Shown here: piece after piece, positions 36,536 to 42,823 of the stretch
Layout of the letters: the number at the start of each line of letters is the position of its first letter
Numbering within the stretch: position 1 is the stretch's first letter
Source: Bdellovibrio sp. BCCA
GTDB taxonomy: Bacteria; Bdellovibrionota; Bdellovibrionia; Bdellovibrionales; Bdellovibrionaceae
Reading direction: 5' to 3'
Assembly (NCBI RefSeq): GCF_037996825.1
Contig: NZ_JBBNAC010000001.1
Coordinates: 310,001 to 374,000, forward strand
Length of the DNA stretch: 64,000 nt
Program-made: the position numbers and the translations under genes
The notes under the pieces: model-generated
The model's input: the letters and a program-made list of their open reading frames with translations, nothing else
The model's database searches: none
Told to the model about the DNA's origin: nothing

Positions 36536-37570
36536 TTGATCGTTTACCTGATTCGCCGATTGCTTTTGATGATCCCGACGTTCTTCGGGATCACCGTTTT
36601 GACCTTTGTGCTGATTAACTTGGCTCCGGGAAGTCCCATTGAGCAGAAGCTGCAAGCGATCCGTTTCGGATCTGCCGGTGGCGGAGGCGGCGGTGGTGGC
36701 GGTGGTATCAACACTCGTGGTGATACGTCGGTGAATGAGGAGGTTATCGAAGCCCTCAAAAAACAATATGGCTTTGATAAGCCGTTGCACGAACGCTACA
36801 TCATTTGGGTAAAAAACCTAGCGCGTTTGGATTTCGGCGAAAGCTTCACTTATCAAGAGCCTGTTATCGACGTTATCAAAAGTAAACTTCCTGTTTCTTT
36901 GTCCTTCGGTATCGCTTCTTTGATTCTGACATATATTGTGTGTATTCCTTTAGGGGTGCGGAAGGCGATTAAAGCCGGAGCTTCCTTTGACCGTGTGACC
37001 ACGATCCTGCTCAATCTCACTTACTCCATTCCTCCGCTGGTATTGGGTATCTTCTTGATCGTTGTGTTTGCGGGTAAATTAAATATGTTCCCTATTGGGG
37101 GCTTCCAGTCAGACGACTACGAGTCGTTGACGACGATGGGCAAGATTTTAGATCGCGCTCATCACTTTGTTCTTCCTTTGATTTGTTATATGATCGGTGG
37201 TTTCACCGAACTTTCTATCTTGATGCGAAACTCGATGCTCGACGTCGTGAAATCAGACTTTGTTCGTACGGCTCGCGCTAAGGGTTTGTCTGAAAAGGTT
37301 GTTATCTTTAAGCATGCTCTCCGTAATGCTTTGATTCCGATTGCAACAGGCTTGGGTGGTTTCTTCGGGGCTTTCCTTGCAGGTTCTTTGATCATCGAGC
37401 AGATGTTCAACTTGGACGGTATCGGCCTTCTTGGTTATCAATCAGTTCTTTCTCGTGACTACAACGTGATCATGGGAATTACGTTTATTTCTTCGTTGCT
37501 CTTGATGCTTGGCCGCGTATTTAGCGACATCATCTATGTTCTTATCGACCCAAGGATTGACTTCAAATGA
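36536..37570 (+). CDS. oligopeptide ABC transporter permease (OppB/DppB-like)
   Basis: A 344-aa inner-membrane permease, six helices. N-terminal MIVYLIRRLLLMIPTFFGITVLTFVLINLAPGSP is typical of DppB; the cytosolic EAA loop is VRTARAKGLSEKVVIFKHALRNALIPIATG. It starts at TTG 36536 with GGAGTAGGG upstream, and overlaps the next permease by 4 nt (ATGA). Odd feature: ten consecutive glycines (residues 48-57) in the first periplasmic loop, encoded by mixed GGT/GGC/GGA codons, where homologues usually have a short loop. It pairs with the OppC-like protein; ATPases are at 56388-58348. Confidence 0.9.
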   Translation: MIVYLIRRLLLMIPTFFGITVLTFVLINLAPGSPIEQKLQAIRFGSAGGGGGGGGGGINTRGDTSVNEEVIEALKKQYGFDKPLHERYIIWVKNLARLDFGESFTYQEPVIDVIKSKLPVSLSFGIASLILTYIVCIPLGVRKAIKAGASFDRVTTILLNLTYSIPPLVLGIFLIVVFAGKLNMFPIGGFQSDDYESLTTMGKILDRAHHFVLPLICYMIGGFTELSILMRNSMLDVVKSDFVRTARAKGLSEKVVIFKHALRNALIPIATGLGGFFGAFLAGSLIIEQMFNLDGIGLLGYQSVLSRDYNVIMGITFISSLLLMLGRVFSDIIYVLIDPRIDFK

Positions 37571-38595
37571 TGGATCCAATTCAAAAATATCTTATTAAGA
37601 ATGAGCTTACGCTTAAAAGATATAAACGCTTTAAGCGCGACCGTGTGGCCGTCATCTCTGTTTGGGTTTTGTTGACGATGTTCTTCTTTAGCTTCACTGC
37701 GGAGCTATGGGCAAACAACCGTCCTCATATCATGAGCTATCACGGGAAATTGTATTTCCCACTTTTCGTAGACTACCATCCGACAGCCTTCGGCCGTGAA
37801 GATATCTACGTCATGGATTACCGTCAGCTTGAGATGGGTGAGGGTGACTGGGCTGTGTGGCCGGTTATCCAGTGGGACCCTTACGAGAGCAATAAATCCG
37901 TCGACACTTATCCGTCTCCTCCAACGAAAGTAAATTGGATCGGTACAGACGAAAGTGGCCGTGACGTGATGACTCGTCTTCTTTACGGTTTCCGCTACAC
38001 AATGCTCTTCGCATTGGGAAGCTGGATTGTGACTTATGCTTTGGGTATCACCTTGGGTGCGTTGATGGGTTACAAGGGCGGGAAGGTCGACTTGGTTGGC
38101 CAACGTGTCGTTGAAGTCGTGGAGAGTGTGCCGATCTTGTTCGTGTTAATCACGATCATCTCGATCTTTACGCCAAGCTTACCGATTCTGATTCTTCTTG
38201 TGTCTTTCTTCGGATGGACAGGTATTTCTGCTTACATGCGTGCGCAGTTCCTTTCTTTAAGAAAGCGTGAGTACGTTGAAGCAGCAAAAGCCATCGGTGC
38301 TGATCACAAACGCATTATCGGAAAACACATTCTTCCAAATGGTCTGACTCCGATCGTGACATTTGCTCCGTTCTTTATCGCAGGCGGCGTGAATACACTT
38401 TCTTTCCTGGATTACTTGGGACTAGGACTTGTTCCACCAACACCAAGTTGGGGTGAACTCATGGCTCAAGCCCAAAAATGGTTCACAATCGCCGAGTGGC
38501 TAGTATGGGGACCAATGGTCGCTATCGTCCTAACACTAACAGTTTTGATCAACATCGGTCTCGCCGTCCGCGACGCCTTCGACGCAAAGATGTAG
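37567..38595 (+). CDS. oligopeptide ABC transporter permease (OppC/DppC-like)
   Basis: A 342-aa permease with the OppC N-terminal segment (RFKRDRVAVISVWVLLTMFFFSFTAEL), a long periplasmic insert (residues ~50-125), the GTDESGRDVMTRLLYGFRYTM motif and the EAA loop YVEAAKAIGADHKRIIGKHILPNGLTPIVTF. It forms the channel with the OppB-like protein. The stop codon TAG (38593-38595) is the first three bases of a REP-like repeat copy (38593-38630), so the present C-terminus was set where the repeat begins. A terminator follows at 38668. Confidence 0.92.
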   Translation: MMDPIQKYLIKNELTLKRYKRFKRDRVAVISVWVLLTMFFFSFTAELWANNRPHIMSYHGKLYFPLFVDYHPTAFGREDIYVMDYRQLEMGEGDWAVWPVIQWDPYESNKSVDTYPSPPTKVNWIGTDESGRDVMTRLLYGFRYTMLFALGSWIVTYALGITLGALMGYKGGKVDLVGQRVVEVVESVPILFVLITIISIFTPSLPILILLVSFFGWTGISAYMRAQFLSLRKREYVEAAKAIGADHKRIIGKHILPNGLTPIVTFAPFFIAGGVNTLSFLDYLGLGLVPPTPSWGELMAQAQKWFTIAEWLVWGPMVAIVLTLTVLINIGLAVRDAFDAKM

Positions 38596-38630
38596 GTACC
38601 TGCTTCCCTTCGTGTCGATTTAGGTACATG
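38593..38630 (+). repeat. REP-like repeat copy A (next to transposase)
   Basis: TAGGTACCTGCTTCCCT, one variable base, then CGTGTCGATTTAG and GTACATG. GTACCT (38597-38602) pairs with AGGTAC (38622-38627), so the element can fold. The first TAG is the stop codon of the OppC-like gene. Copies B (39367-39393) and C (40885-40921) are inverted relative to it. Confidence 0.8.
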
Positions 38631-38667
38631 GTCTGACTTCGGACAGATAAGAATTCAAATAGAAATT

Positions 38668-38697
38668 AAAAGGCTCCTCTCAACGGGAGCCTTTTTG
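38668..38697 (+). terminator. intrinsic terminator of the oligopeptide permease operon
   Basis: Stem AAAAGGCTCC / GGAGCCTTTT with an 8-nt loop and a run of T ending at 38696. It stands just before the transposase gene. Confidence 0.85.
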
Positions 38698-38713
38698 CTT
38701 ATTGGCCAACCAT

Positions 38714-39352
38714 ATGCCAAGACAGAAGCAAATTTATACACCCGAATTTCCGTATCACATCACCGCTCGCTGCCATAATAAAGAATGGTTCGATCTTCCG
38801 ATAGAGGAAGTCTGGACCGTCATGTCCAACTATCTTTATTTTATCCATTGTGCCTACAAAGTAGAAATTCATGCCTTTGTATTAATGAGTAATCACTTTC
38901 ACCTCATTGTTCGATTTCCCGAGAATAATATGTCCGAGGCCATGAACTATTTTATGAGGGAAACGTCCCGTGTGATTTCTCGCGGAGCTGGAAGAATCAA
39001 TCAAACCTATGGATCGAGATATTTTCGTTCAGTGATTGGTAAGTCGAACTACCTTGAACATGTTTATAAATATTTATATCGGAATCCCGTAGAGGCAGGT
39101 CTTTGCAAGCGCGTGGAGGAATACTCCTTTAGTACTCTGCAAATTCGACTGGGAATGAGGAGAGGAGTGATCCCTCTTGTGCGCGATCTCCTTTTAGAAG
39201 AAACCCCGAGCGCAACTTTGGAATGGTTAAATACAAAGCCTAAGGACAACGATTGGGAAGAGATCAAAAAGGGTCTCCAAAAACCTCAATTCGGACTTCC
39301 GAAAAGAAAGAGTGGAACTTTTATTCATCATTTGGAAGTGAATCGTTTTTAA
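38714..39352 (+). CDS. REP-associated tyrosine transposase (RAYT, Y1_Tnp)
   Basis: A 212-aa single-strand transposase of the IS200-like Y1/HUH superfamily. N-terminal PRQKQIYTPEFPYHITARCHN strand, the HUH motif in LMSNHFHLIVRF (residues ~62-73), and the catalytic-helix Tyr in YLEHVYKYLYRNPVEAGLC (~117-135), as in TnpA-REP proteins. The tail is basic (FGLPKRKSGTF). ATG 38714 gives the family N-terminus; a TTG 12 nt earlier is less likely. It is bracketed by repeat copies A and B in inverted orientation, the expected arrangement for a RAYT and its own REP elements. Confidence 0.92.
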   Translation: MPRQKQIYTPEFPYHITARCHNKEWFDLPIEEVWTVMSNYLYFIHCAYKVEIHAFVLMSNHFHLIVRFPENNMSEAMNYFMRETSRVISRGAGRINQTYGSRYFRSVIGKSNYLEHVYKYLYRNPVEAGLCKRVEEYSFSTLQIRLGMRRGVIPLVRDLLLEETPSATLEWLNTKPKDNDWEEIKKGLQKPQFGLPKRKSGTFIHHLEVNRF

Positions 39353-39366
39353 AACCAAGCGTCCTT

Positions 39367-39393
39367 ATTCGATACGGAGGGAAGCAGGTACCT
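39367..39393 (-). repeat. REP-like repeat copy B (partial)
   Basis: On the minus strand GGTACCTGCTTCCCTCCG followed by TATCGAAT: the GGTACCTGCTTCCCT core is identical to copies A and C, while the second half has decayed (GTATCGAAT versus GTGTCGATT). It lies between the RAYT stop and the GNAT gene stop. Confidence 0.75.
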
Positions 39394-39397
39394 TTGC

Positions 39398-39955
39398 TTA
39401 TAGATCCAGACCTATATTTTTCCCAAAAGCTTTGCGTCTATTGGGGCAAAAAAAATATTTAAGATCTACTAAAAAACGAAATTTTTCATGGAACTGCACT
39501 GAGTTTATTATGAAACCCGCTTTCAGTTTGGGAATCAGGACGGCGGCATTGTTGGGATGATGCGAACTTGTCACAACTTGAAATCCTTCTTCAGATATTC
39601 TTTCAAGTACTGTTTCTAATAGGCGTCCATAGAGTCCTTGGCCGCGGAAAGATTCGAGGATGGCTGAATTTTGCATATAGTAAGTTTCAGCGTCGACGGC
39701 ATAACCGAAATGCCAACCGACGACTTCTTGTCCTTGAAATAAGACTAAACGAAGTCGAAATCGATTGTCCTTGTTGGCCCGTTCTTTTATTTTCAAATTA
39801 ATGTCATCGGGGATTGAACTGCTGAATAATTCATTGGAGCGATTCTTAAAAATGCGGTCAAAATTCAATCTTAGGATCGTCGATAGCTCTTGCTGTGTAA
39901 CTTCTCGAATAACAAATCCGTTTTCTAGTTCTTTCGGTAGCATAGTGATCCTCAT
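39398..39955 (-). CDS. GNAT family acetyltransferase in small-peptide operon
   Basis: A 185-aa GNAT protein: VLFQGQEVVGWHFGY, then motif A as AILESFRGQGLYGRLLETVLERI (R-G-Q-G-L-Y-G) and a C-terminal VQFHEKFRFLVDLKYF. The substrate is unknown. It is the third gene of an operon with a GRDP-like protein and a small secreted peptide; the start overlaps the upstream stop (ATGA, 39955-39952). It is the end of the operon and its stop is 5 nt from repeat copy B. The context suggests it could modify the peptide or protect the cell, but nothing in the sequence proves it. Confidence 0.8.
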   Translation of the reverse strand: MRITMLPKELENGFVIREVTQQELSTILRLNFDRIFKNRSNELFSSSIPDDINLKIKERANKDNRFRLRLVLFQGQEVVGWHFGYAVDAETYYMQNSAILESFRGQGLYGRLLETVLERISEEGFQVVTSSHHPNNAAVLIPKLKAGFIINSVQFHEKFRFLVDLKYFFCPNRRKAFGKNIGLDL

Positions 39956-40359
39956 TTTAATAATTCGGGATAAATAAAAAATATTCTGTTAACGAATTCG
40001 GGTCCTAAGTGATTTTCTAACAACGTCATTTGCTGTTTTAGCACTTCTTCCATTGAAATATTGTTTTCATTGGATTCTACGTTGAGTGCTTCAGGATGGT
40101 GATGCAAGTATTCACCAAACTCGCTGCTGCAAAAATCATGATACAATTTTGTATGGAGAATGAAATGGTGCCAAATGGAATCTAGATAATTTATTTGATT
40201 GGTAAAAAAGAAGGGTTCGTTAAGAAGCCCTCCTTTTTGCGCTTTGTGAACAAATCTTAGTAATGTCAGGAGATCTTGAAAGATCATGTCAATGAGAGTC
40301 TGTGATTTTGAGTTTTGATAATCTTTAAAATTCACGGCTTTACAAATAATATCTTTCAT
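39952..40359 (-). CDS. GRDP-like (glycine-rich-domain-protein N-terminal type) protein
   Basis: A 135-aa helical protein. The segment INYLDSIWHHFILHTKLYHDFCSSEFGEYLHHHPE (in three blocks: LDSIWHHFILHTKLY, HDFCSSEFG, EYLHHHPE) matches the pattern D-x-x-W-H-x-x-I-L-x-T-x-x-Y-x-x-F-C-x-x-x-F-G-x-x-x-H-H-x-P seen in GRDP-like/DUF1399 proteins of plants and bacteria. The conserved His and Cys look like a metal site. No biochemical function is established to my knowledge. It lies between the secreted peptide gene (20 nt upstream) and the GNAT gene (4-nt overlap). Confidence 0.65.
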   Translation of the reverse strand: MKDIICKAVNFKDYQNSKSQTLIDMIFQDLLTLLRFVHKAQKGGLLNEPFFFTNQINYLDSIWHHFILHTKLYHDFCSSEFGEYLHHHPEALNVESNENNISMEEVLKQQMTLLENHLGPEFVNRIFFIYPELLK

Positions 40360-40379
40360 GGAGGTCGTCCTTTTTTTAA

Positions 40380-40679
40380 TTATACGGGATCGCCGTCGCC
40401 ACCATGAGAACCTTGTCCACAGGTTCGATAGATTTCGCCATCTGAAGCCTTTTGTAAGAGATTTGATTTTGATTTTTCGTAGCTACGGATATTGCCGCCT
40501 TGATTTCTAAGAACTTCAATGTCTTCATTAGTAAGTTGAGATTCATCGATGTTCAATGCGCGTAAAACGCTTCGAACAGATGAAATTTCCGCATTATTTA
40601 AGGCCGCTGCGTTGGCATATGGGGCCGTGGCCAAAACAATCACGGCAATAAGTGTTTTTTTAAGGTTTGTAGCTTTCAT
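40380..40679 (-). CDS. small secreted peptide with CGQGSHGGDGDPV tail
   Basis: A 99-aa protein from ATG 40679 (AAGGAGAAA upstream). Signal peptide: KKTLIAVIVLATAPYANAA. The mature ~75 residues are helical and charged (LNNAEISSVRSVLRAL, QLTNEDIEVLRNQG) and end in a Gly-rich tail with a single Cys, CGQGSHGGDGDPV. The leader-plus-Gly-rich-core look recalls precursor peptides of modified peptides or bacteriocins, but it could equally be a small structural secreted protein. It is the first gene of the operon with GRDP-like and GNAT genes. Confidence 0.7.
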   Translation of the reverse strand: MKATNLKKTLIAVIVLATAPYANAAALNNAEISSVRSVLRALNIDESQLTNEDIEVLRNQGGNIRSYEKSKSNLLQKASDGEIYRTCGQGSHGGDGDPV

Positions 40680-40753
40680 AATTTTCTCCTTCCGTTTATC
40701 GGATGACATTTCCGTATTGCGAACCAAATGCCATGCTTAAAGAGAGTATATTT

Positions 40754-40768
40754 GAGATGGCTTATCTC
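40754..40768. promoter_or_regulatory. possible operator in the peptide-operon promoter region
   Basis: Palindrome GAGATGGCTTATCTC (GAGAT-N5-ATCTC) about 75 nt before the peptide start, adjacent on the minus strand to a TATACT box. Such a site could bind a dimeric regulator. Weak evidence only. Confidence 0.3.
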
Positions 40769-40842
40769 ACAGACTCTTGAAGGTCTTAATTCTTAGAATA
40801 TAGAAGAAAAGTTAGATGGTAAAAATCCGCAGGATCACAGAA

Positions 40843-40876
40843 TAAAAAAAAGCCCGCAGAGTGTGGCTGCGGGCTT
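40843..40876 (-). terminator. intrinsic terminator of speA
   Basis: Stem AAGCCCGCAG / CTGCGGGCTT with a 7-nt loop; on the minus strand it is followed by eight T. It lies 43 nt after the speA stop, with repeat copy C between. Confidence 0.88.
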
Positions 40877-40884
40877 GGTTAACT

Positions 40885-40921
40885 CATGTACTAAATCGAC
40901 ACGGAGGGAAGCAGGTACCTA
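40885..40921 (-). repeat. REP-like repeat copy C (solo)
   Basis: On the minus strand TAGGTACCTGCTTCCCT, C, CGTGTCGATTTAG, TACATG: 35 of ~37 bases match copy A. The first TAG is the stop codon of speA (40921-40919). It lies between the stop and the terminator, the same position copy A takes after the OppC-like gene. Confidence 0.85.
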
Positions 40922-42823
40922 TTCGGCTTCTTCGAGGTATGTGTAGCCGGAGAGGCCTTCCTCGTAGTGCTTGATTAGGAGCTTTGCTTCTTGTTTTGTG
41001 ATCGAACCTTTTTGGATTGATTCTTCTGTGGCTTGACGAACGCTGTCTACCATTTCAGAGCGGCCGTATTGAACGTAAGAAAGAACTTCCGTTACGGTGT
41101 CGCCTGGAACGTAGTGGTCGATTGTGTATCCAACGCCGTTCAATGAAATGTGAACTGCGTCTGTATCGCCGAACAAGTTGTGAAGGTCGCCTAGGATCTC
41201 TTGGTATGCGCCTGTGAGGAACACGCCAAGATAGTACTGTTGACCGTCTGTGAACTTGTGCAAGCGAATTGTTTCTTTTGGTTCGCCAGATTCTGTGTCG
41301 ATGAATTTTTCAATCACACCGTCAGAGTCGCAAGTCAAATCTGCCAACGTCGCTTCACGGCCTGGTTCTTCACCAAGGCGGTGAATTGGAACCACTGGGA
41401 AAAGTTGTCCTACGGCCCAAGAGTCAGGAACAGATTGGAACACAGAGAAGTTTGAGAAATAAGTATCGCAAAGCTCTTTAGAAAGCGCTGTGATGATGTC
41501 TTCTGTGTCTGGAACAGTTTTCGCTAGTTTCACCATTTTTGTGGCGATAGCGAAGTACATGCTTTCACACCATGCACGTTGTTCAAGACTCAAAACGCCG
41601 TACGTGAAAAGTTGCAACGTCTCTTGTTTTGCTTGTTCAAGGTCATTGAAACATTCGTTGATATTGTCTTTGTTCACTTTTTCAAAAATGTACTGCATGT
41701 CTTGCATGATCGAAGGATCTGTCTTCGCAGCAGGACGAGGCGGTTCATGACGGTGAAGGTCGTTGATACCCATCACGTTAAAGATCAAAACAGAGTGATG
41801 CGCCACCAAGAAGCGGCCAGACTCTGTCACGATGTTTGGATGAGGAATGCCTTTTTCATCACAAAGAGTTTGCAAAACAGACACGATGTCGTTCGCGTAC
41901 TCCTGTTCAGAGTAGTTGATAGAGCTGTCAGAGTGGCCTGAGCCGTCGTAGTCAACACCGAGGCCGCCGCCCACGTCGATGTACTTAAGGCCTGCACCCA
42001 TTTTGTGAAGTTCCGTATAGAAACGAGCGCCTTCTTTCAAAGAAGACTTGATTGATTGAATTTGTGGAACTTGAGAGCCGATGTGGTAATGAAGAAGTTC
42101 AAGGCAATCAAGCATGCCTTCTTTTTTCAAGAACTCAACGCCTTCAACGATCTCTGTTGCTGTTAAGCCGAACTTCGAGCGAGCGCCGGAAGAATCAACC
42201 CATTTACCTGCACCTTGAGTGTTCAATTTTGCGCGGAAACCGATTTTTGGACGAGCGTTGAATTTCTTCGCTACGTCGACGATCATTTTCAATTCTTCTT
42301 TACGGTCGACAACGATGATCGTGTTTCTTCCCAATTTTTGAGAAAGGATCGCTGTTTCGATGTATTCAGCATCTTTAAAGCCGTTGCAGATGATCAACGC
42401 GTTTTCCGTGTTCATCAAAGCAAGAACCACAAGAAGCTCTGGTTTGGAACCGGCTTCAAGGCCCATGTGGAAGCCTTTGCCGTATTTCACAAGCTCTTGA
42501 ACAAGGTGGCGCTGTTGGTTCACCTTGATCGGGTAAACGCCACGGTAGCCACCTTTGTAGCCGTGATCTGCGAAAGCTTTTTGAAAGCAGTTATTCAAAA
42601 GCTCAACACGAGCTTTGATGATGTCAGGAAAGCGAATCATGATTGGAACGCGAATACCGCGGTCCAAAAGATCTTGGGTTAAATCAAACAAGTCCACTGA
42701 CGGACCGTTTGCTCCCATTGGAGTAACGGAAACATTACCTGCTCCGTTGATTCTGAAATAACCGTTGCCCCAGTTGTTGATCCCATAAAGCTCAGCGCTT
42801 TTCTCAGGACTCCAATTAGACAT
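40919..42823 (-). CDS. speA: biosynthetic arginine decarboxylase
   Basis: A 634-aa PLP fold-III decarboxylase. PLP-binding K100 lies in GVYPIKVNQQRHLV; the TIM barrel includes LLHYHIGSQVPQI and YIDVGGGLGVDYDGS; the active-site motif after the barrel is CESMYFA. Length and N-terminus (ELYGINNWGNGYFRI) match SpeA (~630-660 aa). It converts arginine to agmatine, the substrate of SpeB. The last codon is followed by a TAG that belongs to repeat copy C. A terminator follows at 40843. It starts downstream of leuS on the same strand, across the hairpin at 42854. Confidence 0.95.
   Translation of the reverse strand: MSNWSPEKSAELYGINNWGNGYFRINGAGNVSVTPMGANGPSVDLFDLTQDLLDRGIRVPIMIRFPDIIKARVELLNNCFQKAFADHGYKGGYRGVYPIKVNQQRHLVQELVKYGKGFHMGLEAGSKPELLVVLALMNTENALIICNGFKDAEYIETAILSQKLGRNTIIVVDRKEELKMIVDVAKKFNARPKIGFRAKLNTQGAGKWVDSSGARSKFGLTATEIVEGVEFLKKEGMLDCLELLHYHIGSQVPQIQSIKSSLKEGARFYTELHKMGAGLKYIDVGGGLGVDYDGSGHSDSSINYSEQEYANDIVSVLQTLCDEKGIPHPNIVTESGRFLVAHHSVLIFNVMGINDLHRHEPPRPAAKTDPSIMQDMQYIFEKVNKDNINECFNDLEQAKQETLQLFTYGVLSLEQRAWCESMYFAIATKMVKLAKTVPDTEDIITALSKELCDTYFSNFSVFQSVPDSWAVGQLFPVVPIHRLGEEPGREATLADLTCDSDGVIEKFIDTESGEPKETIRLHKFTDGQQYYLGVFLTGAYQEILGDLHNLFGDTDAVHISLNGVGYTIDHYVPGDTVTEVLSYVQYGRSEMVDSVRQATEESIQKGSITKQEAKLLIKHYEEGLSGYTYLEEAE

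Follow-up and report, generated by a model that had tools for sequence, protein, structure and literature searches.

At the oppC–speA locus of this Bdellovibrio genome, two convergent genes end exactly where copies of a short repeat begin, and a gene for a RAYT transposase lies with the repeats between them. The locus therefore raises the question of whether the repeat supplies the two stop codons or lies behind stops that were already there. The window, meaning the whole stretch of 64,000 nucleotides that was analysed (G000:C1:310001-374000), belongs to a 4.0 Mb genome in two contigs. Its relevant features are as follows.

37567-38595, forward strand: OppC-like ABC permease gene (ORF; PF00528, 5.5e-32, and PF12911), with the stop codon TAG at 38593-38595.
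38593-38629, forward strand: copy A, in which GGTACCTGCTTCCCT starts at 38595 and shares the G of the oppC TAG stop.
38668-38695, forward strand: terminator-like hairpin 3' of oppC and copy A.
38714-39352, forward strand: RAYT gene (TnpAREP-like Y1 HUH transposase, 212 aa) with NHFH and KYLYRNP motifs (PF01797, 1.1e-9).
39363-39393, reverse strand: copy B, inverted relative to copy A, near the RAYT stop.
39398-39955, reverse strand: GNAT acetyltransferase gene (ORF and domain search), between the RAYT gene and speA.
40850-40876, reverse strand: terminator-like hairpin 3' of speA and copy C.
40885-40921, reverse strand: copy C, in which GGTACCTGCTTCCCT starts at 40919 and shares the G of the speA TAG stop.
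40919-42823, reverse strand: speA, biosynthetic arginine decarboxylase (NF003763, 1.2e-260), with the stop codon TAG at 40921-40919.

A preliminary description had reported three copies, and a pattern search of the window recovered all of them (at 38593, 39393, and 40921). GGTACCTGCTTCCCT had three exact matches; with up to three mismatches, it had six matches against 0.74 expected, a number reached in 0 of 100 shuffles. The ORFs confirmed that oppC and speA terminate in frame at the TAG of copies A and C, respectively, and both copies are followed by terminator-like hairpins, consistent with their reported position between stop and terminator. The RAYT gene is bracketed by A and B, which are inverted to each other, and B also lies 5 nt past the stop of the convergent GNAT gene (39955-39398). 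In G000, the GNAT gene and two small ORFs (window positions 39398-40727) separate copy B from speA; in G003, G010, G020, and G023, the oppC–speA gap is approximately 0.8 to 1.1 kb and contains a RAYT gene without the GNAT gene and the small ORFs.

The repeat unit is approximately 45 to 48 nt long, (A)AAGGTACCTGCTTCCC...AAAAGGAACCAGGTTCCTTT, and forms an imperfect palindrome with the consensus nAAAGGTACCTGCTTCCCTTTGTGTnnAAAAGGAACCAGGTTCCTTTT; pairing of its arms usually leaves two mismatches. The repeat occurs as full units, inverted doublets, and single arms, and copies A, B, and C are all single arms. The repeat proper starts at GGTACC and is preceded by an A-run in most copies away from stops. 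Because most of these copies start with AAAGG and not TAGG, only the last base of the stop TAG is clearly repeat sequence; the earlier proposal that the repeat begins with the stop codon thus clearly holds only for the shared G. No GTAG/GTGG or CGTC tetranucleotide was found at the hairpin foot; the heads are A-runs, and TAGG appears mainly after a stop codon. The copies were detected by searching for the 5' arm pattern, so that some of the conservation seen in this arm stems from the search itself.

In the G000 genome, nine copies are exact and several others are near matches, and at four loci (136535/136587, 888613/888664, 2176486/2176543, and 3046032/3046087) they form inverted doublets 50 to 60 nt apart, i.e., a dispersed unit of the REPIN type. 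The repeat is multi-copy in seven of the 24 Bdellovibrio species (G000, G003, G006, G010, G019, G020, and G023), and in the remaining species of the genus it is absent or represented by a stray match. Outside the genus, a single match was found in one of 42 other family members. Genomes with the repeat have 9 to 19 matches, below the tens to hundreds of copies of REPINs.

Genome-wide, the repeat showed a preference for stop codons across the genus that is far above chance. By our count, 39 of 108 repeat arms start at -1 to +3 nt relative to the end of a stop codon on the same strand, a range that comprises 1.27% of intergenic positions, which speaks against the coincidence that the preliminary description had considered. 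In 20 arms, the repeat overlaps the stop by the G of TAG, approximately 26 different genes have a repeat at their stop, the 5' arm usually faces the stop, and almost no arm starts between +12 and +37. Genes were predicted by an ad hoc caller based on codon usage. Since many copies are orthologous, the count was repeated per locus family with placement in the copy's own spacer: uniform placement within each spacer predicted 13.6 arms at stops against 37 observed, and taking one pick per locus family gave 19.3 of 38 against 8.6 expected (median P 1.7e-8). The -1 to +3 range was chosen after the data had been seen, and these P-values are therefore descriptive. A target preference for A-runs or TAA alone was rejected as an explanation because the predicted proportions, approximately 2.5% and 8%, respectively, are too low. 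A sister repeat family belonging to other RAYTs of the genus is placed at stops in a similar way, with 10 of 42 copies at exactly TAA+2, where TAA is followed by AA and GGTGCC.

These counts also bear on whether the pattern is a by-product of genome compactness, in which only insertions into non-coding gaps persist and the stop is simply the first tolerated site behind a gene. The coding density is approximately 88%, and some spacers are entirely taken up by the element, as this explanation would predict. The excess at stops nevertheless remains more than twofold within the same spacer, and the peak at 0 to 3 nt is far narrower than the room available ahead of terminators would demand. We regard this explanation as decidedly unlikely.

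The preliminary description had further proposed that the repeat supplies the stop codon and thereby shortens or replaces the C-terminus. In mechanistic terms, if the A-run or AGG head of an element were joined to an in-frame T, TAA or TAG would arise and reset the gene end, and the G of TAG common to gene and repeat in 20 arms fits such an origin. We compared gene ends between relatives that have the repeat and those that lack it. SpeA has an identical end position across the 24 species, whether or not the repeat is present; its stop is TAG in all six species with an intact repeat and TAA or TAG in the rest. Every OppC found has the C-terminus DAFD(A/S)(K/R)M, and oppC orthologs with the repeat have the junctions TAGG, TAAGG, and TAAAGG. 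Five further stop-associated genes (from G020, G019, and G006) have orthologs that almost all lack the repeat, and nearly all of these orthologs have the same end codon. Gene ends are thus equal with and without the repeat, indicating that the stops are older than the insertions. The comparison therefore largely refutes the stop-making role, and replacement of C-termini by the repeat is rejected on the basis of speA, oppC, and the five other genes. The proteins are unchanged, with one possible exception. In lysC of G005 (L225), the predicted protein ends early at FIE*, and the TAG is directly joined to a related repeat, GTACCAGCTTC; this gene may be a true case of C-terminal truncation and favors a stop made by the element. 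As an account of the whole family, a stop made by the element is highly improbable.

Copies at stops might alternatively be kept for a function: as an RNA hairpin adjoining the stop codon, they could slow termination, stall ribosomes, or protect the 3' end of the mRNA. In E. coli, ribosomes can reportedly be stalled by REPs that lie no more than 15 nt from a stop codon, according to the passage of PMC12306157 that cites its reference 17. The sharp peak at 0 to 3 nt and the mostly 5'-arm-first orientation would fit such retention, as would the presence of different repeat types at the lysC stop in G000, G020, G001/G004/G007/G008, and G005, and at the stop of one of the five further genes in G020, G004, and G007. 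By contrast, stop copies fold worse than other copies (mean -12.4 versus -17.0 kcal/mol, P 0.007). Many full copies fold well, whereas A, B, and C do not, with no significant hairpin in any of the three (DNA z-scores of 0.0, 0.7, and 1.5). Both results argue that the placement is not due to a hairpin function. The repeat alignment showed no covariation beyond that of shuffles; together with the weaker folding at stops, this led us to reject a conserved RNA structure. Most orthologs also lack the repeat, and retention for a function appears doubtful to us.

The assignment of the repeat to the RAYT, which had been proposed from proximity and inverted flanking, gained support from the rest of the genus. 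The window protein matched NF047646 (REP_Tyr_transpos) with 2.5e-20 and 72.8 bits, just below the curator's threshold of 80, and scored much lower against plain IS200 (20.8 bits). Its AlphaFold2 model (pLDDT 90.7) had as the best PDB fold match 4er8_A, TnpAREP bound to a REP hairpin, which was also matched by sequence (2e-7). The residues H61, H63, Y120, N124, and P125 of the HuH and Tyr/NP motifs are invariant across 28 RAYTs. RAYTs of one clade (support 100/99) are present in five species, always at oppC–speA and always between inverted copies (5/5); these five RAYTs have 64 to 78% identity to the window protein, compared with at most 57% for other full-length RAYTs of the genus. Comparative sequence data thus support the view that the repeat belongs to this RAYT. 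A broken RAYT copy lies beside speA in G005. G006 and G019 have many repeat copies, yet no RAYT of the oppC–speA clade was found in the genome analysed for either species, which counts against the proposed dispersal by this RAYT; G019 carries repeats at both the oppC and speA stops with no RAYT between them, and in G018, where both stops have repeat relics, a RAYT of the clade is likewise missing.

RAYT genes are known to sit between inverted REPs (PMC2817692), and the present family resembles REPIN–RAYT systems (PMC3116915, PMC2817692, and PMC3390384) in that the RAYT lies between inverted repeats and is inherited at one locus, and further cognate repeats occur elsewhere, some in inverted doublets and some alone. 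It differs from them in its few copies, its A-rich head, and a long, loose palindrome where those systems have a compact hairpin with GTAG. E. coli TnpAREP (PDB 4er8; PMC8266576) is the best match in sequence and fold, shares the HUH and Tyr motifs, and has a REP stem that, like the Bdellovibrio repeat, contains two mismatches. However, the E. coli enzyme cuts at CT and needs GTAG at the hairpin foot. GTAG-tagged REPs are likewise short intergenic palindromes that crowd gene ends, and flanking ORFs often take their TAG stop from the REP terminus (Di Nocera 2013, PMC3733652). They number hundreds per genome, compared with approximately 9 to 19 matches here, and the Bdellovibrio family has an A-run and GGTACC with no GTAG/CGTC tag. 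Stop-overlapping REP termini are thus already known from GTAG REPs, and here they occur with an A-rich head instead of GTAG. The family behaves like a REP but has few copies and, without a GTAG/GTGG or CGTC tag, is not classed as a tagged REP. Among the papers searched, none relevant to RAYTs or REPs of Bdellovibrio was found. The present data show RAYT-linked REP-like repeats with a non-GTAG head in a predatory bacterial genus.

Taken together, the repeat is probably a REP/REPIN-like non-autonomous element of the Bdellovibrio RAYT lineage at oppC–speA that was put directly behind existing stops. The RAYT would have moved or copied the elements via single-stranded DNA, with insertion directly behind stop codons already present and usually with the 5' arm against the stop. 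With an A-run and GG at the head of the element, every junction from TAAAAGG to TAGG remains a stop; the host protein thus keeps its end, and the insertion would be tolerated. The precision of the placement could reflect a preference for cutting or targeting DNA near TA(A/G), with purifying selection acting on the outcome. As evidence against this reading, the search turned up no recent, clean insertion for which an intact empty site was available, and the close relatives G003, G006, and G010 mostly keep decayed copies. A stronger version, in which Bdellovibrio RAYTs truly prefer stop-like TA(A/G) in single-stranded DNA and transposition itself is aimed at gene ends, is speculative and rather unlikely; if true, such targeting would be a way for a mobile element to spare its host. 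The repeat-free orthologs show REP-type elements settling beside existing stops rather than making them, and target choice versus selection becomes testable, as the repeat and transposase can be assayed for a TAA/TAG preference.

The oppC and speA copies are more alike within a genome (0.75, outside the shared arm) than copies at the same site are between genomes (0.64 and 0.53), which points to homogenisation within each genome. Nearly every other RAYT examined in the genus lies between inverted copies of a repeat of its own, such as AAGGTGCCTGCTTCTTTTTTGGGTCTACA or AGGTACGCCGTACCTTTT; these RAYTs include the genes at C1:577930-578532 and C1:400342-400965 in G000 and the loci L072-L096, and the genus thus holds a whole set of RAYT–repeat pairs. 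At two loci in G006 (L127 and L131), several copies of a different palindromic repeat, TTACTTCCACNGTGGAAGTAA / TTACTGCCACNGTGGCAGTAA, lie near the repeat studied here.
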